From the NCBI RefSeq assembly GCF_000177635.2, contig NC_014836.1, forward strand, positions 911,501 to 975,500: 64,000 nt of DNA, given 5' to 3'. The translations under genes and the position numbers were made by a program. This document shows positions 8,797 to 24,961 of the stretch, piece after piece (the first letter of the stretch is position 1; the number at the start of each line of letters is the position of its first letter). This stretch comes from Desulfurispirillum indicum S5 (GTDB lineage Bacteria; Chrysiogenota; Chrysiogenetes; Chrysiogenales; Chrysiogenaceae). The notes below the pieces were generated by a model that was given only the letters and a program-made list of their open reading frames with translations, was not told the DNA's origin and ran no database searches.

Positions 8797-11700
8797 TCTC
8801 CCTTCAGAACAAACATCAGCAGGCAGGGAATAACCAGGATGGTAAACACCGTGGACAGGGCCATGCCCCCCACGATAACGCTGCCCAGCCCCCGGTACAG
8901 TTCACTGCCGGGCCCTGGAGCCACCACCAGGGGCAGCATGCCGAAAATGGACGTCAGGGTGCTCATGAAGATCGGACGCAGGCGGTTGCGGGTGGCATCG
9001 AGCACCGCGCCCGCCATCTCCATGGAGTGGTAGCGGATGTTATTCAGGGTCTGGTGTACGATGAGGATAGCATTATTGACCACGACCCCGATCAGGATAA
9101 TAAAGCCCAGCATGGTCAGTATGTCCAGCGCCTGGGGCGCGATCAGCGCGTTGGTCAGGCGCAGGCCCGCAAAGCCCCCCGCTGTGGCCAGGGGGACAGT
9201 GAACATGACCACCAGTGGATACACGAAATTGCCGAAAAGTGCTGACATGAGCAGGTAGATAATCGCCGAGGCCAGCACAAAGTTCATGGCGAGCAGCGCC
9301 ACGGTTTCCAGCAGCTTGTCTGCGGTTCCGCTGAGCTGCACCTGAATCTGGGGGGGGATTTTCCCCTCCTGTTTCAGGGAAGGCACAATGCGTTCCTGCA
9401 CAATCTCCATGGCCTCCTGAATGGTGATATGATCCGGCGGCGTCACCTGGAGCGTGATAGTACGGCGCCCTTCATAGTGGCGTATCTCCGTGATGCCGTA
9501 GCGTTGCTCCATGCGCACCAGGTTGGACAGGGGCACCAGCTGCCCTCCGGGAGCCGCGATCTGTGTCCGGAAGAGATCCTCGGGACTGGAAACACGGGAC
9601 TGGGGAGCAGTCAGAACGAGGTCGATCTTTTTCTGCCCCTCCTGCTTGAACTCACCCACTTTGCGGCCCTCCATCAGCACATCAACAGCGGTCCCCACAG
9701 ACGCGGCATTCATATTGACTGCCCGCACCATATCACGGTCGGGAATCAGGGCCACTTCGGGATAAAGCAGTTCCAGTGATGGAACCGGGCGCACCTGAGC
9801 GCCCGCGATGGACTGCCCTACCGCCGCGAAAAGGTGGGAAGCTGCTGCGACGATTTCATCCAGGTCATCGCCCACCACATCCACGTCAATGGTGCGCCCC
9901 TTGCCCAGCCCCTGCTGAAAGATGCCAATCTGGTTGGATATGCCGAAAATACCGGGGAAGGAGTTGAGAACCGGGCGCATCATGGGAATCAGTTCGCGGC
10001 CGCGCTGCTCATCGGTACTGCTGGTCCCCAGGAGCATGATATTGGCCGTGGCCACGTAGAAGGCATTCTCAATACCGGGTTTCTCATCAACTTCTGTGCG
10101 ATAGAAGGGCCAGATGGCAGCAAAGATCTTCTGACCGATATCCTCCTGTTCTGCCACACTGAGGCCGGGGGGAGGAATGAGAATATTCACGACAAAATTC
10201 TGGTTGCCGTGGGGCAGGTATTCCATTTTGGGAAAGAGCACCCAGGCGACTCCGATGGAAAAAACCACCAGGCCAGCCACCGTCGCAATCCGACTGGTGA
10301 CGGTGCGGCTGGCGCGCTCCACCACCATCATGATCAGATCCACCGCCATGTGGCCCGCGCGCACCGAGGGACGCTCAGGTCCCGGCGCCGTGGTACTTCC
10401 ACCGCTGCGGCGAAATATCTGGGCACTGAGCATGGGAATAACGGAAATCGAGACAAAGAGGGAAAAGGTGACAGCAGAGGTCACCGCCAGCGCGATATCG
10501 CGAAACAGCTGACCCGCCTCGCCTTCCAGGAAGACAATGGGCAGGAAAACCGCGATGGTGGTCAGGCTGGAGGCGATAATCGCCCCCCAGACCTCCCGGG
10601 TACCATCGTAACAGGAGTGAAAGGTGGATTTTCCCAGCTTGCGATGGCGGTCAATATTTTCCAGTACCACGATGGCGCTGTCCACCAGCATACCTACGGC
10701 AAAGGAGATTCCCGCCAGCGAAACGATATTCAGGGAGCGCCCCAGGGCATTCATGATGATAAAGGTACCGATAATACTGATGGGGATGGCAACAGCGACA
10801 ATACCAGTGGATGAGGCGCTGCGCAGGAAGCTCACCAGAATGACGATTGCCAGGACGCCGCCGATCAGAATATTCTGCTGGACCAGTTTGACGGCACCCA
10901 TGATGTACCCTCGCTGATCCCGTACCCAGCGCAGATGCAGATCCCGAGGGTGCAGCAGTTCGTCGTTAAGGCGGTTGACCACCTCCTCCAGGGTATTGGT
11001 CAGCTCCACCACGTTGGTACCCGACTCGGCACGCACTCCCACCACCATCCCCGGCTCTCCCATCAGCATGATGGATGCCGTCTTGCGGGCGTAGGCAAAG
11101 TCCACTTCCCCCACATCACCCAGGCGCAGCCGATGCTGCCCATCGGAGCGAATAATGATATCCCGTATCTCCTGGGGACTTTCAAATTCGGCTACCGTCC
11201 TGATGCGATAGCTGCGCCGGCCCATATCCATCTGACCGGCAGAAATGTTGATATTTTCCCGCTGCACCACACTGATGATCTCGTCATAGGTCAGTCCGAA
11301 GGCAGCCATGCGCTCGGGATCGAGGAGAATATGCATCTCCAGATTGCGGCCACCACCGAAGAAGAGATCCGAGACGCCATCCACTCGCTCGATATGCTGA
11401 CGGACCTCGTTCTCGAAAAAATTCCGATAGGTGTCTATATGGTTGGGATTGTTTTCACGGGCCTGCATCATCATCCAGACCACTGGGCTGGAGGTATCAC
11501 CGGAAGCGTTCACGGAAGGTCGTTCGACTCCCTCAGGATAACTGCGTACCTCTCCAAGCTTATTGGAAACATCCAGCAGGGCGCGGTCCATGGGAGTGCC
11601 GATCTTGAAACGCAGGGTAATGGTTCCCATGTTATTGCGGCTTGAACTCTCGTACTCCACGAGATTGGGAATACTCTTCAGGTAGTTCTCCTGAACTTCT

Positions 11701-11891
11701 ACCACATCGCGTTCAATCTCGTAAGGTGACGCACCGGGCCAGGTGGTGCGAACCGTAATCTCCGGTTCCGACACCTCTGGAGTCAACTGGTAAGGCATAT
11801 TGCCCAGGGAGATGAGTCCAAAGAGAAGAATCAGGATAACCCCGACAATCACGGTGACGGGTTTTTCTATGGAAAATCGGATAAAGTCCAT
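8781..11891 (-). CDS. RND-family inner-membrane efflux pump (AcrB/HAE-type)
   Basis: 1036 aa, usual length for the family. Proton-driven export across the inner membrane and out through an adaptor and an outer-membrane channel. The N-terminus FIRFSIEKPVTVIVGVILIL is the first membrane helix. Twelve helices in two blocks of six are expected, with two large periplasmic loops. The helix 4 proton-relay motif reads VGMLVDSAIVVLENIDRH, with one Asp where AcrB has two. Helices around 340-480 and 870-1020 are evident. The adaptor gene ends 3 bases upstream, so they form an operon. No TolC-like gene follows, so the outer channel must come from elsewhere. Substrate unknown; sequence is closer to hydrophobe-type pumps than to metal pumps by my reading. 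Confidence 0.93.
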   Translation of the reverse strand: MDFIRFSIEKPVTVIVGVILILLFGLISLGNMPYQLTPEVSEPEITVRTTWPGASPYEIERDVVEVQENYLKSIPNLVEYESSSRNNMGTITLRFKIGTPMDRALLDVSNKLGEVRSYPEGVERPSVNASGDTSSPVVWMMMQARENNPNHIDTYRNFFENEVRQHIERVDGVSDLFFGGGRNLEMHILLDPERMAAFGLTYDEIISVVQRENINISAGQMDMGRRSYRIRTVAEFESPQEIRDIIIRSDGQHRLRLGDVGEVDFAYARKTASIMLMGEPGMVVGVRAESGTNVVELTNTLEEVVNRLNDELLHPRDLHLRWVRDQRGYIMGAVKLVQQNILIGGVLAIVILVSFLRSASSTGIVAVAIPISIIGTFIIMNALGRSLNIVSLAGISFAVGMLVDSAIVVLENIDRHRKLGKSTFHSCYDGTREVWGAIIASSLTTIAVFLPIVFLEGEAGQLFRDIALAVTSAVTFSLFVSISVIPMLSAQIFRRSGGSTTAPGPERPSVRAGHMAVDLIMMVVERASRTVTSRIATVAGLVVFSIGVAWVLFPKMEYLPHGNQNFVVNILIPPPGLSVAEQEDIGQKIFAAIWPFYRTEVDEKPGIENAFYVATANIMLLGTSSTDEQRGRELIPMMRPVLNSFPGIFGISNQIGIFQQGLGKGRTIDVDVVGDDLDEIVAAASHLFAAVGQSIAGAQVRPVPSLELLYPEVALIPDRDMVRAVNMNAASVGTAVDVLMEGRKVGEFKQEGQKKIDLVLTAPQSRVSSPEDLFRTQIAAPGGQLVPLSNLVRMEQRYGITEIRHYEGRRTITLQVTPPDHITIQEAMEIVQERIVPSLKQEGKIPPQIQVQLSGTADKLLETVALLAMNFVLASAIIYLLMSALFGNFVYPLVVMFTVPLATAGGFAGLRLTNALIAPQALDILTMLGFIILIGVVVNNAILIVHQTLNNIRYHSMEMAGAVLDATRNRLRPIFMSTLTSIFGMLPLVVAPGPGSELYRGLGSVIVGGMALSTVFTILVIPCLLMFVLKGEKPRA

Positions 11892-11894
11892 GGC

Positions 11895-12968
11895 TCAGTT
11901 ATCTTTCACAGAGGTTGTGGCACCGATGATCTGAACAGCCTGCTGCGGGAAAATGCGCTCATTACCCTTGACAACCACCAGGTGTCCCTCCTGCAGTCCG
12001 GCCACCCGGACCCCCACCTGCAGTTGATCATAGGCGATGATTTCCACCGGCTTCATTTCCGCCTTGCCATCCACCACCACAAAGAGCACATCCTGACCAA
12101 AGCGACGGATGACACTGTCACGGGAGACCAGCAGAACATCAACCTGATCATTGCCGGCAAACATCACCTGAGCCCGCATTCCTTCCATCAACTGGCCGGA
12201 ATGCTCCACCCGTACTTTTACCGGAAAGGTGCGCGTGGCGATGTCGGCCTGAGGAATAACCGCATCCACAACGCCAGCATGGAGCTTTTCCTGAACACGT
12301 ATCTGCACTGGCTTACCCACCTGTATCACGTCCACATCTGCCTGGGAGACGTTGACGATCACCTGCATGGATCCGTGTGCTGCCAGATTGACCACCGGTG
12401 CCCCAGGCATCACCCACTCTCCCGCCTCAGCCAGTCGTTGCAGAACCACGCCGTCAAAAGGGGCAAGGATACGTTTATGAGCCAGCTCCAGCTCCAGGGC
12501 ACGCAGATTATGCTCCTGGGCCACCAGGCGAAACTTGAGCTCCTCCAGGGCATAGTGCGCGTCATCGTAGGCCTGTTGAGAGCTGAGATTCTGCCGGAAG
12601 AGGTTCTCGGCGCGCTTGAAATTCTGCCGGGCGCGCTCAATCTGCACCCGCAGCTCATCAGCCTGGGCCCTGGCGGCCAGGAGCCTCTGGCCCAGAATAT
12701 CTGAACCCAGGCGCACCAGGGTATCACCACGGTTCACCCGCTGCCCTTCACGAACCTGAACCTCTTCGACCCGCCCGCTGACCTCACTGGTCACACGGGC
12801 AGTGCGGTCAAAAAAAACCGTCCCCTGATAGACAAGCGGCTGCGAGAGCACGCCCTGTCTCACCGCTTCAACCTCCACCGGAGCAGGAGGGCGTTCCTGC
12901 TGAGCCCAGACTCCCTCCGCACCGGCCAGCATCAGGCAGAGCACCATAAGACGCGCAATAGTATTCAT
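11895..12968 (-). CDS. RND efflux periplasmic adaptor subunit (membrane fusion protein)
   Basis: 357 aa. Links the RND pump encoded 3 bases downstream to an outer-membrane channel. It has a cleavable-type signal peptide (MNTIARLMVLCLMLAGAEGVWA), a lipoyl/barrel-sandwich half (VEEVQVREGQRVNRGDTLVR), a helical hairpin at about 90-150, the second lipoyl half (ILAPFDGVVLQRLAEAGEWV) and beta-barrel and membrane-proximal domains. Two ATGs lie close together; the second (12968) is chosen because AGGTG is 7 bases from it and too close to the first (12974). Its promoter must lie in the gene-free stretch upstream that holds the hairpin element. Confidence 0.92.
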   Translation of the reverse strand: MNTIARLMVLCLMLAGAEGVWAQQERPPAPVEVEAVRQGVLSQPLVYQGTVFFDRTARVTSEVSGRVEEVQVREGQRVNRGDTLVRLGSDILGQRLLAARAQADELRVQIERARQNFKRAENLFRQNLSSQQAYDDAHYALEELKFRLVAQEHNLRALELELAHKRILAPFDGVVLQRLAEAGEWVMPGAPVVNLAAHGSMQVIVNVSQADVDVIQVGKPVQIRVQEKLHAGVVDAVIPQADIATRTFPVKVRVEHSGQLMEGMRAQVMFAGNDQVDVLLVSRDSVIRRFGQDVLFVVVDGKAEMKPVEIIAYDQLQVGVRVAGLQEGHLVVVKGNERIFPQQAVQIIGATTSVKDN

Positions 12969-14568: not shown

Positions 14569-16731
14569 TTACTTCACCGGCGCATACTCGCGCTGGACAA
14601 ATCGCTTCAACCCATTGATGACGTAGGGGTTGACACTGAAGGTGCGAAAGCCAAGATCAATAAGGTGACGCAGCATGGCGCGGTCCGTGGCGATCTCCCC
14701 ACAGATTTCCACGGGAATATTCAGGCGCTGCGTCGCGGTAACGATCATCTCCAGCAGGCGGAGAAACGCCTGGCTGTTAGGGTCATAAAAACTGCTGACC
14801 TTTGGGTCTGTGCGATCAAGGGCAAAGAAATACTGGAAGAGGTCGTTGGTGCCGATACTGAAATAGTCGGCCCGGGTAGCCAGCTCATCCATGCAGAATA
14901 CAGCGGACGGGATCTCCAGCATGACTCCGACGCGCGGCACCTCCAGTTCCATGGTGCGGCACTGAGCCTCGATCACATCCCGTATACGGAAAAACTCCGA
15001 TGGCTCGGAAATAAAGGGAACGAGAATATTAATATCCCGGGGCTCATGTTCGCGGCGATACTCAGCAATAACGTGGAGCAGAGCCTTAACCTGCTCCAGC
15101 AGAAAATCGGGCTCTCCCAGCAGCAGCCGCGCACCACGATAACCGAGGGCCGGGTTGTCCTCTTTGATTTCACGGGTGCTCTTTTTATCAGAACCGATGT
15201 CGAAGAGACGGAAGATCACCGGCCCCCGCGAGTAGATATTGACGATCTGACGATACACTTCCACCTGCTGCTCATATTTCCAGTCGCCATCATGCTGCAG
15301 ATAAAATATTTCCGTACGCACCAGACCGATACCACTGGCGTGATCCTGCTCCGCCCGCTGGGCATCCAGCACACTGGAGACATTGGCGTAAAATATGATT
15401 TCATCGCCATCCGGAAGGAGAATGGGCCCCAGGGGAGTCTCACGACGACTGTCGCGGTCACGGCGGCGCTGGCTCGACTGCTGCTGGCGAGTGTACTGCT
15501 CCACGGTCGCGGGCTGGGGATTGACGATTACCAGACCCTGATACCCATCCACGATCAACTGGCGCGCGTACTCCGTCGCTTCAAAGAGCTTCGGAATCCC
15601 GGTAACCGCAGGGATCTGGCGGTTCTTCGCCAGTATGGCCGTATGGGAAGTGGCACCATCCTTCTCGGTGACAAAGGCTTCGACTTTTTCCAGGTCAAGG
15701 GAAGCCGTCTCCCCAGGGGTCAGCCGGTCGGAAATAATAATGCTGTCCGCCTGCAGCTGCGCTTTTCGGCTGAGCACCCCCAGGTGAGTCATCAGGCGCT
15801 GGCAGATATCCTCAATATCAGCAGCCCGCTCGCGCAGGTACGGATCCTGGAATGAGGTGAACTTTTCAATCAGCTTATCGGCCACATGGCGCACGGAGAA
15901 AGCCGCGCTCTTGCCATGCTCATTGATATGACGCTGCACTTCTTTTTTAAAGCTGCTGTCTTCAAGCATCAGCAGGTGGGTGTGGAATATCTCCGACTCC
16001 GCCGCCGCGCCGCGCTTTTCCATTTTTTCCGCCAGCTCCCTCAGGTCATCGGCTGTCTTGACACTGGCTTTCTCGAACGCCTGCAGCTCCACCACCGGAT
16101 CAACCTTGCCCACGGCGCTTTCAATGAAGCGGTAGATAATGCGAACCGGGTGGCCGATGGCAATGCCCTCGGCCAGGGGAACGCCCTGTAAAAGCACTTC
16201 CTGATGGGGATCTTTTCCTTCGTCTGCCTGGGCAGAGCCCTCCACCATGTAGTGACGCAGCACCAGGCCGGAAACCTGGGCGGCAATGGCCGTCAACAGC
16301 TTCTCCTGTATCCTGGTGTTGTTTTTGCGATTTTTGAACTGAAAGACCAGGACGCCAAACGTGTTCAACCTGCTTTTCAGCGGAATGCCGATAAAGGTGC
16401 GGAAAGGCTCTTCACCAATACCGGGGAAGTACTTGAACTGGGGGTGGTGGGAAGCGTCACGGATAAAGGTATAGGTGTTGCTGCGGAAGGCGAGGCCCGT
16501 CAGACCTTCATCGGCAGCCATGCTGACCTGCCCCACCGCCTCCTGACGCAGACCCTCGGTGGCAGCCAGCGTCAGAATGCTCTCACTGGAACGACTCTGG
16601 AGATATATGGAACAGACGTCGCTTTTGAGTTCGCGTTTCAGATAAGTTGTTATCTCGGAAAGGGCGTTCTCGTGGCAGGATGAATCGAGAATAATATTGC
16701 TGACATCGAGGAGTATTTCAATCTTGTTCAC
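14569..16731 (-). CDS. ptsP: phosphoenolpyruvate-protein phosphotransferase, nitrogen-type (GAF-EI)
   Basis: 720 aa. Moves phosphate from PEP to the nitrogen-branch HPr (NPr). Domain order: GAF sensor (about 10-155), PEP-utiliser N-terminal domain, swivelling domain with the phospho-histidine in KDGATSHTAIL (about H363), and the PEP-binding TIM barrel with SIGTNDLFQYFF and the catalytic VEICGEIATD. The GAF domain distinguishes it from sugar-PTS enzyme I. A GTG at 16746 overlaps the queA stop but has no ribosome site; the GTG at 16731 follows GGTGG at good spacing and fits the family's N-terminus. No HPr or EIIA gene is in the window. Probably co-transcribed with queA and pfkA. Confidence 0.93.
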   Translation of the reverse strand: MNKIEILLDVSNIILDSSCHENALSEITTYLKRELKSDVCSIYLQSRSSESILTLAATEGLRQEAVGQVSMAADEGLTGLAFRSNTYTFIRDASHHPQFKYFPGIGEEPFRTFIGIPLKSRLNTFGVLVFQFKNRKNNTRIQEKLLTAIAAQVSGLVLRHYMVEGSAQADEGKDPHQEVLLQGVPLAEGIAIGHPVRIIYRFIESAVGKVDPVVELQAFEKASVKTADDLRELAEKMEKRGAAAESEIFHTHLLMLEDSSFKKEVQRHINEHGKSAAFSVRHVADKLIEKFTSFQDPYLRERAADIEDICQRLMTHLGVLSRKAQLQADSIIISDRLTPGETASLDLEKVEAFVTEKDGATSHTAILAKNRQIPAVTGIPKLFEATEYARQLIVDGYQGLVIVNPQPATVEQYTRQQQSSQRRRDRDSRRETPLGPILLPDGDEIIFYANVSSVLDAQRAEQDHASGIGLVRTEIFYLQHDGDWKYEQQVEVYRQIVNIYSRGPVIFRLFDIGSDKKSTREIKEDNPALGYRGARLLLGEPDFLLEQVKALLHVIAEYRREHEPRDINILVPFISEPSEFFRIRDVIEAQCRTMELEVPRVGVMLEIPSAVFCMDELATRADYFSIGTNDLFQYFFALDRTDPKVSSFYDPNSQAFLRLLEMIVTATQRLNIPVEICGEIATDRAMLRHLIDLGFRTFSVNPYVINGLKRFVQREYAPVK

Positions 16732-16745
16732 AGGTGGCCCACCCA

Positions 16746-17765
16746 CTACGGCAGAAAGAGCATGCCGTCACCATAACTGAAAAAACGGTAACGCTGGCTC
16801 ACGGCATACTGATAGATCTGCTGGATATTTTCACGCCCGTAAAATGCACTGACCAGAAGGATCAGGGTGGAGTCAGGCAGATGAAAGTTTGTTACCATAC
16901 CATCAATCACGGCAAATGAGTAGCCCGGACGGATAAAAATATCGGTGGAGCCCCCTGTTCGCAACGGAGTATGGCCAAAGCAGCTTTCCAGCGCGCGCAC
17001 CACTGTTGTTCCCACGGCAATGACACGACCACCTGAGCGACGGGTGTCCGCAACCAGATCCAGGGTCTGCGCCGGCACGTGAAAGTGTTCGGAGTGCATG
17101 CGATGTTCGTCAATGCGCTCACTTTTCACAGGCAAAAAGGTGCCCAGCCCCACGTGCAGCGTGATGGTGGCAGTGCGCACCCCACGCTGGCGCAGCCCCT
17201 CCACAATGGCAGACGTAAAGTGCAGTGATGCCGTAGGGGCCGCTACCGCCCCATCGCGGGCGGCAAAGACTGACTGATAACGCTGGTTGTCACGGCTGTC
17301 GGCTTCTCGCTTGATGTAAGGTGGCAGGGGAATGGCCCCGCAGGCAAACAATTCCTGATCATCAACACTGAAGCGGGCGACGGCCATCTCCCCATCCCGC
17401 TCCTCAATCACCGCCTCAACCCCATCGCCAATATGAACCAGGGTACCTGGAACCAGTTTTTTCCCCCTGGTCAGGACACGCCAGCACCGGGGAGCGCAGG
17501 GCTCAACCAGAAAAATCTCCACCGCCCCGCCAGTTGATTTCCGGCCCTTCAAGCGTGCCGGAATCACTCGGGTATCGTTAAAGACCAGCAGGTCGCCGGG
17601 CCGCAGATACTCGGACAGCCGGCTGAACGTACTTTCACCGACGATGGCTGGCGCCAGTGCACGGGACAGCACCAGCAGGCGGCTGGCATCACGCTGCGCC
17701 AAGGGCTCCTGGGCAATCAGCTCGGCGGGAATATCCACATGGTAATCGCACAGGTATTCGGACAC
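16746..17765 (-). CDS. queA: S-adenosylmethionine:tRNA ribosyltransferase-isomerase
   Basis: Transfers and isomerises the ribosyl group of SAM onto 7-aminomethyl-7-deazaguanine in tRNA to give epoxyqueuosine. About 340 aa from the GTG at 17765, the normal length for QueA. Signatures include an N-terminal DIPAELIAQEPLAQRDASRL, LLVFNDTRVIPARLKG, and GLGTFLPVKSERIDEHRMH. The frame is open upstream into pfkA, but that extension has no family similarity. The chosen GTG starts one base after the pfkA stop codon; spacing from an upstream GGGA is acceptable, so the start is probable, not certain. Operon with pfkA upstream and ptsP downstream. No other queuosine genes seen here. Confidence 0.94.
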   Translation of the reverse strand: MSEYLCDYHVDIPAELIAQEPLAQRDASRLLVLSRALAPAIVGESTFSRLSEYLRPGDLLVFNDTRVIPARLKGRKSTGGAVEIFLVEPCAPRCWRVLTRGKKLVPGTLVHIGDGVEAVIEERDGEMAVARFSVDDQELFACGAIPLPPYIKREADSRDNQRYQSVFAARDGAVAAPTASLHFTSAIVEGLRQRGVRTATITLHVGLGTFLPVKSERIDEHRMHSEHFHVPAQTLDLVADTRRSGGRVIAVGTTVVRALESCFGHTPLRTGGSTDIFIRPGYSFAVIDGMVTNFHLPDSTLILLVSAFYGRENIQQIYQYAVSQRYRFFSYGDGMLFLP

Positions 17766-19019: not shown

Positions 19020-20519
<1,500 letters not shown>

Positions 20520-20541
20520 TCACTTTCCTGACACGAAGGAT

Positions 20542-20559
20542 ATGATTGTATACAATCAT
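20542..20559. promoter_or_regulatory. perfect 18-base palindrome, possible GntR-type operator
   Basis: ATGATTGTATACAATCAT is an exact palindrome between the divergent gdhA and PEP synthase-like genes. Its TTGTATACAA centre resembles operators of FCD-type GntR-family repressors. A related ATTGTATAC half-site lies in the nuo promoter (50982-50990). Confidence 0.5.
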
Positions 20560-20604
20560 CACAAGACTTGCAATGGAAATGTAATAAGTGTCAAAAGTGT
20601 CCGT

Positions 20605-20621
20605 TTTGTCATTATGACAAA
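20605..20621. promoter_or_regulatory. 17-base palindrome next to the PEP synthase-like start
   Basis: TTTGTCAT-T-ATGACAAA, two perfect 8-base arms around a single T, about 30 bases before the start at 20651. The shape suits a dimeric regulator, perhaps CRP/FNR-like, though spacing differs from the classical FNR box. AGTGTC occurs twice just upstream. Confidence 0.4.
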
Positions 20622-20650
20622 TACACCATATCTTAAACCGGAGCACAATA

Positions 20651-23260
20651 ATGAGTTACGCACTTCGTGAGAAAATATCTACTGGCAATAATGGACTTGA
20701 CCTTATTCTTGATCACCTGCGCCTCGGTGACAATGTTGTCTGGAAGGTCGACGAACTCAGCAGTTATCGCCACTTCGTGGGGCAATTTGTCGAACGCTCC
20801 CGCCAACAGGGGCGCAAAATTGTCTACATGCGCTTTGGCAGCGGAGAGCTCCTGATTGAGCCCTGCACGGATGTGGAGATAGTGGAACTCAACCCCAGGC
20901 TGGGTTTTGAGCCCTTTGCCACGGAAGTGCACCGGGTGCTCACCTCACGGGGACGGGGTGTCATCTATGTCTTCGACTGCCTCTCAGACCTCATATCCGC
21001 CTGGGCAACAGACTATATGGTAGGAAACTTCTTCCAGATCACCTGCCCCTACCTGCTCTCCCTGGACACCGTAGCCTACTTCGCCGTACGCAGCCAGAGC
21101 CACAGCCTTGACACCATGCAGCGCATCCGCAAAACCACTCAGGTCTTCCTGAACCTGTACAACCATCAGGGGAGCCACTATGTTCACCCCCTGAAAGTCT
21201 GGCAGCGACACTCGCCGACCATGTTCCTGCCCCACCGCGACCAGGGCGGCGAGTTTGTCCCCCTGGCCCGCAGTTACGAAGCCACCTCCCTCATGAGCCG
21301 CGTCCTGGAAGGAACACGGGACGTCACCCGCCAGCTGGATCACTGGCAACTGCTCTTCCTGAAAGCGGAAGAACTTCTGAGCAACGGTGGACCCGAAGAA
21401 GAGCAGAAGCGCATGGTCGTTCACCTGTGCCGCCATCTCATGGGTAAAGACGAACGCGTGCTTCAGCTGGCCCACCAGTACTTTTCACTGGCCGACCTGC
21501 TGGCGTTTAAACGTCGCATGATTGGAACCGGCTTTATCGGCGGCAAAACCACAGGCATGCTGCTGGCCAGCAACATACTTACTCAAAGCGATCCAGACTA
21601 CTGGCAGCATGCCCTTGAACCCCATGATTCGTACTTTATCGGCTCCAACCTTTACTACTGGTACCTCATCCACAACGACTGCTGGAGCCTCTTCATGGAG
21701 CATAAGGAGCACGAGGACCACAACAGTCCGGCCGCGCAGCAGCTGCGTGCCCGCATCATGCACGGAAAATTCCCCACGGCGATTCGCCAGGAATTTGAAA
21801 CCATGCTCGAATACTATGGACAATACCCCATTATCGTGCGCTCTTCGAGTCTCCTGGAAGATGGCTTCGGCAACGCCTTCGCTGGAAAGTATGACAGCTT
21901 TTTCCTCGCCAACCAGGAGATATCTCCGGAAGAGCGCCTTGAACATTTCGAGGATATTGTCAGGCGCATCTACTCCAGCACCATCGGCGGCGATGCCCTT
22001 GTCTACAGGCGCAAACGCGGGCTGATTGAGCAGGATGAGCAGATGGGACTGCTGGTGCAGCGGGTTATCGGCTCCTACCAAGGGCATTACTATTTCCCTG
22101 ATGCCGCCGGCGTAGGCATTTCCTACAACACCTTCGTCTGGGACAGCGCCATGGATCCCCAGGCCGGTATGCTGCGCCTGGTGGCGGGACTGGGGACCAG
22201 GGCCGTTGATCGCGCTGAAGGCGACTACGCGCGCCTAGTCGCCCTGGACCACCCCGGCAAGAAGCCGTATCATGAAGGCGAGGACACCCGTCGCTACGCC
22301 CAGAAGGATGTGGATGTCCTTGATCTCAACGCCAATGACCTGCGCACGGTGCCCTTCCAGTCCCTGACCCAGAAGCAGATGGAGCATGCCCTCGAGAAGA
22401 TCGCCCTGCGTGAACGGCGCACCATCTCACGCAAGGGCAAGCTCTCCCAGCCCCACATCAACTGGATACCCACCTTTGACCCCATGCTGGCAGACACCGA
22501 CTTCGCTGAGCGCATGCAGAAGGCCATGCAGACCCTGGAGAAGGTGTATCAGTACCCCGTGGATATTGAGTTCACTGTCAACTTCCGCGCCGATGGCAGC
22601 TACTGCCTGAATATCGTCCAGTGCCGACCTCTGCAGACACGGCGCCTGGGGCAACGCATCGATATTCCCAGGGACATCCCCGACTCCCACATCTTCCTGC
22701 GCCAGCAGGGCAACTTCGTGGGTGGCAGTATCTGCTGTGACATCAAGCGCATCATCATCGTCTATCCCCAGGCATATCATGAACTTTCCCTGGCCCAGAA
22801 ACACGAACTGTCGAAAATAGTCGGCGAAATCAATGCCGTCACCAGCCGCACGGAAGAGCCCACACTGCTGCTGGGACCAGGACGCTGGGGCACCACCACC
22901 CCCTCCCTGGGCGTACCCGTAAGCTTCTCCGAGATCAGCAACATGGCGATTCTTGCTGAGGTCGGCTGGGAACGGGGCGGCTTCATACCCGAGCTATCCT
23001 TTGGGACCCATTTCTTTCAGGATCTGGTGGAGAGTGAAATTTTTTACGTGGCCATCTTCCCCGAACGCAAAGAAGTAACTTTCCGTGAACAGTGGATTGA
23101 CACCCTGCCCAATGAACTGGACCAGTTTACGTCTCTGGCCTCGGACTTTGAGCACGCCATCAAAGTCTGCACGGCTCCCACATCCCTGTGCCTGCTGGCC
23201 GATGTACTCTCCCAGCAGCTGATGTGCTTTTCCGCAGAACCGGTCGGCGACAATGCCTGA
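20651..23260 (+). CDS. PEP synthase-like protein lacking the phospho-histidine domain
   Basis: 869 aa. The middle (about 280-665) is a PPDK/PEP-synthase N-terminal ATP-grasp domain: TGFIGGKTTGMLLA, IVRSSSLLEDGFGNAFAGKY, GHYYFPDAAGVGISYN and LNIVQCRPLQTR. The N-terminal ~230 residues begin STGNNGLDLIL and read like a RecA/KaiC fold, but where a Walker A loop should be there is GDNVVWKVDELSSYRHF, without GxxxxGK. The C-terminal ~200 residues carry LLLGPGRWGTTTPSLGVP (about 741) and no swivelling domain with GGxTSHxAI, nor a PEP TIM barrel. It therefore cannot run the full PEP synthase cycle; a partial phosphotransfer, binding or regulatory role is inferred. Start ATG has GGAG 7 bases upstream. 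Divergent from gdhA. Confidence 0.8.
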   Translation: MSYALREKISTGNNGLDLILDHLRLGDNVVWKVDELSSYRHFVGQFVERSRQQGRKIVYMRFGSGELLIEPCTDVEIVELNPRLGFEPFATEVHRVLTSRGRGVIYVFDCLSDLISAWATDYMVGNFFQITCPYLLSLDTVAYFAVRSQSHSLDTMQRIRKTTQVFLNLYNHQGSHYVHPLKVWQRHSPTMFLPHRDQGGEFVPLARSYEATSLMSRVLEGTRDVTRQLDHWQLLFLKAEELLSNGGPEEEQKRMVVHLCRHLMGKDERVLQLAHQYFSLADLLAFKRRMIGTGFIGGKTTGMLLASNILTQSDPDYWQHALEPHDSYFIGSNLYYWYLIHNDCWSLFMEHKEHEDHNSPAAQQLRARIMHGKFPTAIRQEFETMLEYYGQYPIIVRSSSLLEDGFGNAFAGKYDSFFLANQEISPEERLEHFEDIVRRIYSSTIGGDALVYRRKRGLIEQDEQMGLLVQRVIGSYQGHYYFPDAAGVGISYNTFVWDSAMDPQAGMLRLVAGLGTRAVDRAEGDYARLVALDHPGKKPYHEGEDTRRYAQKDVDVLDLNANDLRTVPFQSLTQKQMEHALEKIALRERRTISRKGKLSQPHINWIPTFDPMLADTDFAERMQKAMQTLEKVYQYPVDIEFTVNFRADGSYCLNIVQCRPLQTRRLGQRIDIPRDIPDSHIFLRQQGNFVGGSICCDIKRIIIVYPQAYHELSLAQKHELSKIVGEINAVTSRTEEPTLLLGPGRWGTTTPSLGVPVSFSEISNMAILAEVGWERGGFIPELSFGTHFFQDLVESEIFYVAIFPERKEVTFREQWIDTLPNELDQFTSLASDFEHAIKVCTAPTSLCLLADVLSQQLMCFSAEPVGDNA

Positions 23261-23421: not shown

Positions 23422-24195
23422 ATGCAGATTGAGATTCTGGGGATGCACGACTCCATCGCCCCCGGGAAAAGTGGAATGTGCCTGCTGCTGAACCAAACCA
23501 TTGCCCTGGACGCGGGCGCCCTCACTGACAGTCTGCCCCTGGAACGACAGAAAAAGATCGAACATATCATCCTCACCCATTGTCACTTTGACCACATCAA
23601 AGGGCTGCCGTTTTTTGCCGACGGGCTTGCCATGACCTACGGTTCCCACAGCAGCAAACCCGCCCGAGTACACAGCCCGGCCAACGTCATCGACGACCTG
23701 CGCAGACACATCTTCAACAATGTCATCTGGCCGGATTTCACGGCTATCCCACCCAAAAACCCGGTACTGGCATACCATGAAGCACCGGAAACCTTCAGCA
23801 TAGATACCTGCCGCTTCCGTTTTATCCCAGTCACCCACGGTGTCCCCACCTACGCCATCCATATCTGCTGCGAAAACAGGCATGTGCTCTACGTCACTGA
23901 CACTGGCCCAACCATGCAACTGTGGAACTATCTCAATGACCTGCCCCATGCCATAGACGCCATGTTCATCGACGTGGCCTTCCCCAATCGCCTGGAAGAG
24001 CTGGCCATACTCAGCGGCCACCTGACTCCGGGGCTGCTGGCCCGGGAGCTGGAGAAAACCTCGAACCTCCCCGCCATGCTCTACCCCATACACATGAAGT
24101 CGCCTTATCGGGATGTCATCGGCGATGAGCTCGCCCAGACCCTGAAGGCCGGCTCCTACCACATCCCCGAACCCCTGGATATCATCACCTTCTGA
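23422..24195 (+). CDS. metallo-beta-lactamase-fold hydrolase, class II cyclic-nucleotide phosphodiesterase-like
   Basis: 257 aa. Metal-binding motif LTHCHFDHIKG (H53, H55, D57, H58), later VTHGVPTY, a TDTGPT aspartate and an SGHL histidine, as in class II cAMP phosphodiesterases. In that family the product is 5'-AMP. No signal peptide, so cytoplasmic. Start ATG with GGGAG 8 bases upstream. It follows the PEP synthase-like gene after 160 bases without an evident terminator and runs into aat 28 bases later, so a loose operon is possible. If the substrate is cAMP it would link to the PEP-related genes nearby, but this is inference; the MBL fold covers many substrates. Confidence 0.75.
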   Translation: MQIEILGMHDSIAPGKSGMCLLLNQTIALDAGALTDSLPLERQKKIEHIILTHCHFDHIKGLPFFADGLAMTYGSHSSKPARVHSPANVIDDLRRHIFNNVIWPDFTAIPPKNPVLAYHEAPETFSIDTCRFRFIPVTHGVPTYAIHICCENRHVLYVTDTGPTMQLWNYLNDLPHAIDAMFIDVAFPNRLEELAILSGHLTPGLLARELEKTSNLPAMLYPIHMKSPYRDVIGDELAQTLKAGSYHIPEPLDIITF

Positions 24196-24223
24196 GTTCC
24201 TCTGAAGGTGCTTGAGGTACCCC

Positions 24224-24961
24224 ATGATCCTCGTACACGCTGAACCACCAGTATACTACCTGAACCCGCAGCACGTGGCGTTCCCGGACCCGCTGCAGGG
24301 AGCTGGCGATGAACCCATCGCCATTGGCGGAAGCCTCTTGCCACACTGGCTGCTGCACGCCTACCGAAGCGGGATCTTCCCCTGGTTCAGCGAAGACGGA
24401 CTGCCCTATTGGTACTCTCCGGACCCACGCATGATCCTGCCCCTGACTGAGCTCAGCATATCGCGCTCAACCCGGAAATTTCTGCGCAGATCAACATGGG
24501 AAATCCGCTTCGATACGCACTTCATTCAGATCATCAGCCAGTGCGCCAATACCCTGCGCCCCGGACAAAAAGGCACCTGGATCAGCGAGGACTTCATAGA
24601 CGCCTACTCCCGGCTCCATGACATGGGCTATGGACATTGTGTGGGAGTCTACGAAAACGGCTTGCTCATCGGCGGGCTCTACGGATTATCCCTGGGAAAG
24701 GTCTTCTTTGGAGAATCCATGTTCAGCCAGCGGGATAACGCCTCGAAAACCGCCATGATCGCCCTGGTGAAGCACCTTCGCGCATGGGGCTTCGACTTTG
24801 TGGACTGCCAGATACCATCGGAGCACCTGAAGCATCTTGGCGCACAGGAGGTGAGCCGCCGCCAGTACTTCAGGCTTCTGGAGCAGTCTCTGGAAGAAGT
24901 GGATCGAGTCGGAAAATGGAATGTCATCTGCCATGCCAGCGAACTGATCACGGGCCTGTAG
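24224..24961 (+). CDS. aat: leucyl/phenylalanyl-tRNA--protein transferase
   Basis: 245 aa. Adds Leu or Phe from tRNA to N-terminal Arg/Lys of proteins, marking them for ClpS-ClpAP (N-end rule). Family signatures: GIFPWFSEDGLPYWYSPDPRMIL, GYGHCVGVYENGLLIGGLYG, FFGESMFSQRDNASKTA, and FDFVDCQIPSEHLKHLGA. Start ATG at 24224, with GAGG 6 bases away; an in-frame TTG 12 bases upstream contains part of that site and is rejected. Located 28 bases after the phosphodiesterase-like gene; convergent with the M23 peptidase gene. ClpA/ClpS are not in the window. Confidence 0.96.
   Translation: MILVHAEPPVYYLNPQHVAFPDPLQGAGDEPIAIGGSLLPHWLLHAYRSGIFPWFSEDGLPYWYSPDPRMILPLTELSISRSTRKFLRRSTWEIRFDTHFIQIISQCANTLRPGQKGTWISEDFIDAYSRLHDMGYGHCVGVYENGLLIGGLYGLSLGKVFFGESMFSQRDNASKTAMIALVKHLRAWGFDFVDCQIPSEHLKHLGAQEVSRRQYFRLLEQSLEEVDRVGKWNVICHASELITGL

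Follow-up and report, generated by a model that had tools for sequence, protein, structure and literature searches.

We propose that the gene at positions 20651 to 23260 (+) of the window, a stretch of 64,000 nucleotides from Desulfurispirillum indicum S5, specifies a barrel-less auto-kinase which derives from the dikinases PEP synthase, PPDK and rifampin phosphotransferase (RPH) and regulates glutamate formation; the probability of this reading is about 0.5. Since the gene adjoins glutamate-making enzymes so often, it looks like a regulator of the conversion of ammonia to glutamate, and the link of the family to glutamate and nitrogen metabolism is highly probable. The features of the locus are:

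20651..23260, +, whole gene for the barrel-less PEP-synthase-like protein, 869 amino acids
20651..21310, +, KaiC/FlaH-like RecA-fold domain without Walker A, residues 1-220 (model fold, P-loop count)
21428..22648, +, ATP-grasp domain, residues 260-666 (Pfam, model, invariant residues)
22676..23242, +, probable diverged swivelling phospho-histidine domain, residues 676-864 (models in favour, sequence searches without support)
22874..22891, +, GPGRWG motif, residues 742-747 (alignment, conserved)
23009..23011, +, codon of the invariant His787, the proposed phosphate carrier (101-row alignment)
19020..20366, -, gdhA, NADP-specific glutamate dehydrogenase (GDH), divergent neighbour (NF006929, 785.9 bits against a cut-off of 536)
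20367..20650, no strand, intergenic region of 284 bp shared by gdhA and the kinase gene, with two palindromes

The reading frame begins with an ATG preceded by a Shine-Dalgarno-like GGAG and encodes 869 amino acids; its coordinates are exact and its relatives conserved, which bears out the earlier note in treating it as a real gene. A scan of genome contigs revealed at least 574 confirmed relatives of the protein. The best 80 of these are nearly all full-length, show 42-55% identity and come from about ten phyla, namely Desulfobacterota, Planctomycetota, Omnitrophota, Firmicutes, Spirochaetes, Proteobacteria, Elusimicrobia, Deferribacteres, Nitrospira and FCPU426 (labels assigned by hand from the record titles). 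Being the best-scoring of at least 574, these 80 loci form a sample dominated by near relatives and metagenome-assembled genomes. The 75-sequence family alignment has over 100 invariant columns and a mean column identity of approximately 60%; this is a conserved, functional protein under strong selection and not one in decay. Alignment A1 omits six of the 80 loci, five of them cut by contig ends (L030, L064, L065, L067 and L072) and one (L074) which is cut and has an internal stop; all six are retained in the neighbour counts. An alignment of 101 rows takes in eight proteins of Deferribacteres subfamily 2 and three from Bacteroidota, and contains genomes G001 and G014 twice each.

Pfam analysis of the 869 amino acid protein revealed PPDK_N as the sole domain, and no NCBIfam match (PEP synthase, PigC and RPH) exceeded 57.9 bits, where the cut-offs are hundreds of bits or higher. 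A recognised enzyme family with established activity, raised in the earlier note as an objection to its own reading, was looked for and is out, every NCBIfam match being far under its cut-off and PPDK_N standing alone in Pfam. No family-specific paper was found in the open-access PMC literature, judged by titles and the beginnings of abstracts; as far as that literature shows, the family is uncharacterised, generically annotated and widespread in bacteria. An AlphaFold2 model of the whole protein, built from the family alignment, has a mean pLDDT of 87 and a pTM of 0.87.

The ATP-grasp half is intact, as first supposed. PPDK_N spans residues 296-665 (E-value 1.4e-41, 143.3 bits against a cut-off of 27), and the catalytic residues K299, R397, E640, Q657 and R659 are invariant in 101 of 101 rows, including the approximately 25%-identical Bacteroidota proteins. 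In the predicted model, residues ~260-666 superimpose on the ATP domain of rifampin phosphotransferase (5hv6; Z 21.4, 288 residues). ATP-dependent phosphoryl chemistry is predicted to be active in this family, and we consider this quite likely. The protein resembles PEP synthase and PPDK in possessing a PPDK_N domain with these K, R, E, Q and R residues, and differs from them in having neither the barrel nor the canonical GGxTSH swivel motif. The loss of the PEP barrel had been correctly recognised, there being no Pfam match to PEP-utilizers_C (PF02896) in the protein.

Residues 1-220 of the predicted model resemble KaiC, FlaH and RecA (VIA-align Z ~20), and the best Foldseek match of this domain is KaiC (E-value 2.3e-9). 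Asp109, located in a Walker-B-like strand, is invariant. The family N-terminus starts with STGxxGLD, which is also typical of KaiC, so that both fold and start are like those of KaiC/FlaH in the RecA superfamily. Unlike these proteins, the present family has no Walker A P-loop in any of the 75 aligned members, and binding of ATP by the KaiC-like domain is therefore not expected. The N-terminus is thus the KaiC/RecA fold minus Walker A which had been described from the letters alone.

The C-terminal domain is harder to place. Modelled alone it has a pLDDT of 95, and in the models its elements run in the order two strands, helices, strand, strand, a helix started by a histidine, strand and two strands. 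The canonical phospho-histidine domain shows the same order of elements. The histidine, His787, sits at the start of its helix in the predicted model with a strand next to it and, like R745, E770, G785, F788 and F789, is the same in every one of the 101 rows, among which two genomes occur twice. When the whole model is superimposed on RPH (5hv3), the match covers 401 residues and reaches model residue 861 (Z 25.3, rmsd 5.0); with PEP synthase (2ols) it covers 360 residues, positions 260-863 of the model lying opposite positions 13-467 of the chain. Judging by these ranges, the residues beyond the 288-residue ATP domain would fall on the C-terminal domain.

Using VIA-align, the model of the C-terminal domain on its own gave Z-scores of 5.0-5.4 to the swivels of PPDK (5jvn 381-510, 1dik 382-510) and RPH (5fbu 756-867) and 4.5 to EIN-Ntr, values near 5 being within the range of common arrangements. 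The top row was the DRTGG protein 2ioj (Z 6.0), above the swivel domains, and the other matches were the pyruvate kinase extension, RraA, LD-carboxypeptidase and chaperonin apical domains, the last scoring like PPDK. Most of these matches belong, we assume, to the swivelling beta/beta/alpha fold class. Foldseek with the same model returned nothing at E<=0.001, the Pfam swivel model PF00391 matched none of the 75 C-terminal domains, and hhalign against PPDK and EI swivels gave a probability of ~0.1%, which did not change when PtsP was added to the template and the Bacteroidota and subfamily 2 sequences to the query. The Bacteroidota members end in a DGK...GxV-like stretch, similar to the end of the canonical swivel. 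Swivel domains carry the motif T/SxxGGxxxH, according to the accessible text of PMC12167813; this motif (GGxTSH in canonical form) is absent from the C-terminal domain.

Weighing the likeness in fold and the invariant His787 against sequence searches that lend no support, we regard this region as probably a strongly diverged swivelling phospho-histidine domain, with His787 proposed, at the same level of confidence, as the phosphate carrier. The statement in the earlier note that a phospho-histidine domain is missing is thus probably wrong, in view of the predicted fold and the invariant histidine, even though sequence profiles do not recognise such a domain. The GPGRWG motif is present and conserved, and the C-terminal domain bearing it, to which no known role was assigned there, is most probably a phospho-histidine domain in remodelled form. 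The comparison with PPDK and KaiC structures which it suggested has succeeded for the KaiC-like N-terminus and given a weak likeness to the PPDK swivel at the C-terminus.

The gene arrangement was surveyed in the best 80 of the at least 574 relatives. Flanking ORFs were clustered and then counted by strict BLAST against reference proteins, the BLAST counts being used because the 'GltBD' cluster of ORFs was mixed with unrelated members (L060). Reference GltD, GltB, PyrG, PII, GDH, GlnA and NrpR were identified by NCBIfam or Pfam, while Amt, CarA and CarB were named from sequence by us; these are the ten nitrogen genes. GDH lies within 500 bp of the gene in 20/80 loci and within 3 kb in 36/80, a glutamate-forming enzyme (GDH or GltB/GltD) within 3 kb in 48/80, and any of the ten nitrogen genes within 3 kb in 59/80. 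For the 47 loci whose flanks extend 3 kb or more in both directions, the corresponding figures within 3 kb are 25, 34 and 38, leaving nine without any of the ten. By our estimate, chance would place the single GDH gene of a 2.5-Mb genome this close to any particular gene in well under 1% of cases. In the window the two genes are divergent, as had been noted, gdhA (19020-20366, -) starting 284 bp from the kinase-like ORF; what had been missed is that gdhA is a recurrent partner across phyla. The 36 GDH-linked loci comprise 19 convergent, 11 upstream co-directional and six downstream co-directional arrangements, a variety of gene orders which suggests more than one origin of the linkage. In nine loci a NifA-like activator is next to the kinase gene; three were checked, TIGR01817 being the best match in all and one exceeding the cut-off.

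Within the phylum of the window, a close form of the gene is present in 16 of 50 genomes. Genomes with GDH over the cut-off number 15 among these 16 and 20 among the 34 others (Fisher p 0.019, phylogeny being ignored), and 14 of the 16 have GDH within 3 kb of the close form. True PPDK served as a control: GDH is within 3 kb of it in none of the 16 genomes having a PPDK-length frame and GDH over the cut-off. In G001, from the window's own family, the gene is present without an adjacent GDH. In genus g7 the gene and GDH are neighbours in one genome and both are missing from two others; in genus g9 both are present in G017, and G018 and G019 lack the pair and keep subfamily 2 alone.

Two branches are more distant. 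A plasmid-collection search yielded three Bacteroidota relatives which align with roughly half of the query at 25-27% identity and in which receiver-like domains replace the KaiC-like part (PF00072, E-value ~1e-6, just under the cut-off). Two of the three, in Parabacteroides distasonis and Phocaeicola massiliensis, have gdhA adjacent and divergent, as well as a second GDH gene 3.5-4.1 kb downstream; no GDH was found in the 6 kb flanks around the match in Prevotella oral taxon 299. In subfamily 2 (Deferribacteres, L092-L099) a receiver, an ArsR-family repressor and the kinase gene are clustered, with a nitrilase-superfamily gene downstream of the kinase gene, in 8/8 loci; the genes examined with Pfam were one receiver, two ArsR-family repressors and one nitrilase. 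By eye, the receiver sequences show the acidic residues, the phospho-acceptor Asp, the Thr and the Lys, and no GDH was found beside the gene at the subfamily 2 loci. With receivers fused in one branch and neighbouring in the other, the engine is the fixed part, and what accompanies it belongs to signalling. The ArsR-family repressor possesses a CVCE motif, and subfamily 2 is perhaps a metal-responsive variant.

On the reading that we prefer, ATP would be held in the intact ATP-grasp domain and His787, on the swivel-like C-terminal domain, would become phosphorylated. By analogy with RPH and VadK, as described in the accessible texts of PMC4844700 and PMC13400623, phosphorylation by ATP of a histidine on a carrier domain is the most likely chemistry. 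As the acceptor barrel is missing, we propose that a protein partner is acted upon, either by the phosphorylated form or by the phosphoryl group. The target would most likely be GDH (glutamate synthase where GDH is absent) or an adjacently encoded regulator, and the Walker-A-less KaiC-like N-terminus would serve as a regulatory or docking module, other branches having receiver domains as companions, fused or in a neighbouring gene. That the role is regulatory rather than enzymatic we hold to be somewhat the better bet; that GDH itself is the direct target is a tentative suggestion. The earlier guess of a sensor or a kinase of another target is counted as right. Sequence or model shows the ATP-grasp residues, the N-terminal fold, the losses of Walker A and barrel, the invariant His787 and the gene linkage; the kinase activity, the identity of the swivel, the target and the direction of control are our inference.

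A bolder form of this idea, which we put forward as doubtful, is that these proteins constitute a separate class of protein-histidine signalling kinases employing an ATP-grasp domain and a remodelled swivel instead of HATPase, with phosphotransfer and exchangeable sensors. The phospho-histidine might then be passed to receiver aspartates (fused in Bacteroidota, in a separate gene in subfamily 2) or act directly on GDH, and the N-terminal sensor would be either a pseudo-KaiC or a receiver.

Perhaps the protein is instead a metabolic enzyme, a small-molecule dikinase of the RPH, HpeHI or phenylphosphate-synthase type which phosphorylates a metabolite of glutamate or ammonia metabolism bound by its N-terminal or C-terminal domain. 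RPH provides the nearest structures, and a mean column identity of ~60% is more typical of enzymes than of sensors. RPH and HpeHI pair an ATP-grasp domain with a swivel for small molecules (accessible texts of PMC4844700 and PMC12167813); like both of them, the present protein has the ATP-grasp fold and no PEP barrel, and like RPH-Lm it has its histidine domain, a probable one here, in C-terminal position. Unlike them, it is without a rifampin- or phenol-binding domain and its swivel motif is not recognisable; against rifampin phosphotransferase the NCBIfam rph score is 33 bits for a cut-off of 999. No domain resembles a known acceptor-binding domain, the N-terminus is swapped for receiver-like domains in a branch which keeps the gdhA linkage, and the linkage shifts among GDH, GltBD and regulators (NrpR, NifA-like), which fits a regulator better than a single reaction. 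We consider such an enzyme unlikely.

Less probable still is an ATP-binding sensor or scaffold which does not transfer phosphoryl groups, the C-terminal fold being unrelated to swivels, His787 structural and ATP occupancy controlling a partner. The undetected swivel at sequence level and the weak fold similarity of the C-terminal domain would agree with this, as would the KaiC-like domain, domains of this kind being frequently part of assemblies. Such a role does not account for the retention of all ATP-grasp catalytic residues, for a histidine in 101/101 rows, or for a whole-model superposition which runs on through the swivel region of RPH and PEP synthase. Finally, that the protein is half of an ordinary PEP synthase, to which its ATP-grasp domain is indeed homologous, with the barrel encoded elsewhere, can be set aside as far as our searches reach: the partner gene contemplated in the earlier note was looked for genome-wide, no orphan barrel gene was found, and each of the three frames that do encode a barrel (590, 879 and 732 amino acids) has a swivel domain of its own, the 879 amino acid frame also bearing its own PPDK_N as PPDK does.

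The regulatory auto-kinase which we favour has its closest parallel in VadK (Rv1127c) of M. tuberculosis, a barrel-less PPDK encoded beside methylcitrate-cycle genes which, in the accessible text of PMC13400623, auto-phosphorylates His422 and is reported to interact with methylcitrate-cycle enzymes. As described there, VadK shares with the present family a PPDK-derived ATP-binding domain plus histidine domain (probable here), the lack of the pyruvate/PEP barrel and a gene beside the pathway of presumed control, here glutamate-forming enzymes within 3 kb in 48/80 loci. It differs in being simply a truncated PPDK, its histidine domain canonical and its N-terminus not extended, whereas the present family adds a KaiC-like domain and has a C-terminal domain diverged beyond sequence recognition; its context is the methylcitrate cycle instead of glutamate and nitrogen. 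The best reading would be that our family is analogous to VadK at the methylcitrate cycle. If it is regulatory, the two together would suggest that metabolic dikinases have repeatedly given rise to regulatory kinases by losing the PEP barrel.

A partner conserved in about ten phyla is a testable candidate regulator of ammonia assimilation. Ammonia enters metabolism through glutamate dehydrogenase and glutamate synthase, and to our knowledge the control of GDH activity is poorly known in most anaerobes and gut Bacteroidota. Were the signalling-kinase form of the proposal true, many bacteria would possess an unknown post-translational switch on ammonia assimilation.

The region between gdhA and the kinase gene contains two palindromes, which are possible candidate operators of a shared regulator. 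The first, GATTGTATACAATC (20544-20557), has a core, TTGTATACAA, which recurs in the corresponding intergenic region of genome G002 (L084). The second, TTTGTCATTATGACAAA (20605-20621), occurs once in the genome and was rejected as a regulon operator, its own site alone matching at fewer than three mismatches in a genome search. A strict pattern search revealed no sigma-54 promoter between the two genes.

A few neighbouring genes deserve mention. The locus L026, which has no listed nitrogen gene, has an adjoining sodium:dicarboxylate symporter (11598-12914, -; PF00375), a family which includes glutamate carriers. In G005 the GDH near the kinase gene (L101, G005:C2:2066712-2068033) contains an in-frame TAA which interrupts it, and it appears as two separate matches, possibly a pseudogene or a sequencing error. 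Approximately 2.3 kb from gdhA, the window encodes a PtsP-like GAF-domain enzyme I (14569-16746, -; PF05524, PF00391, PF02896 and GAF), and in the relative G001 a 732 amino acid frame with the swivel family PF00391 lies ~4 kb from GDH; the presence of two phospho-histidine proteins near gdhA may be a coincidence. Between the kinase gene and aat (24212-24961), and co-directional, is a gene for a metallo-beta-lactamase-fold protein (23422-24195, +), which matches the RNase Z and class II cAMP phosphodiesterase families far under the NCBIfam cut-offs.
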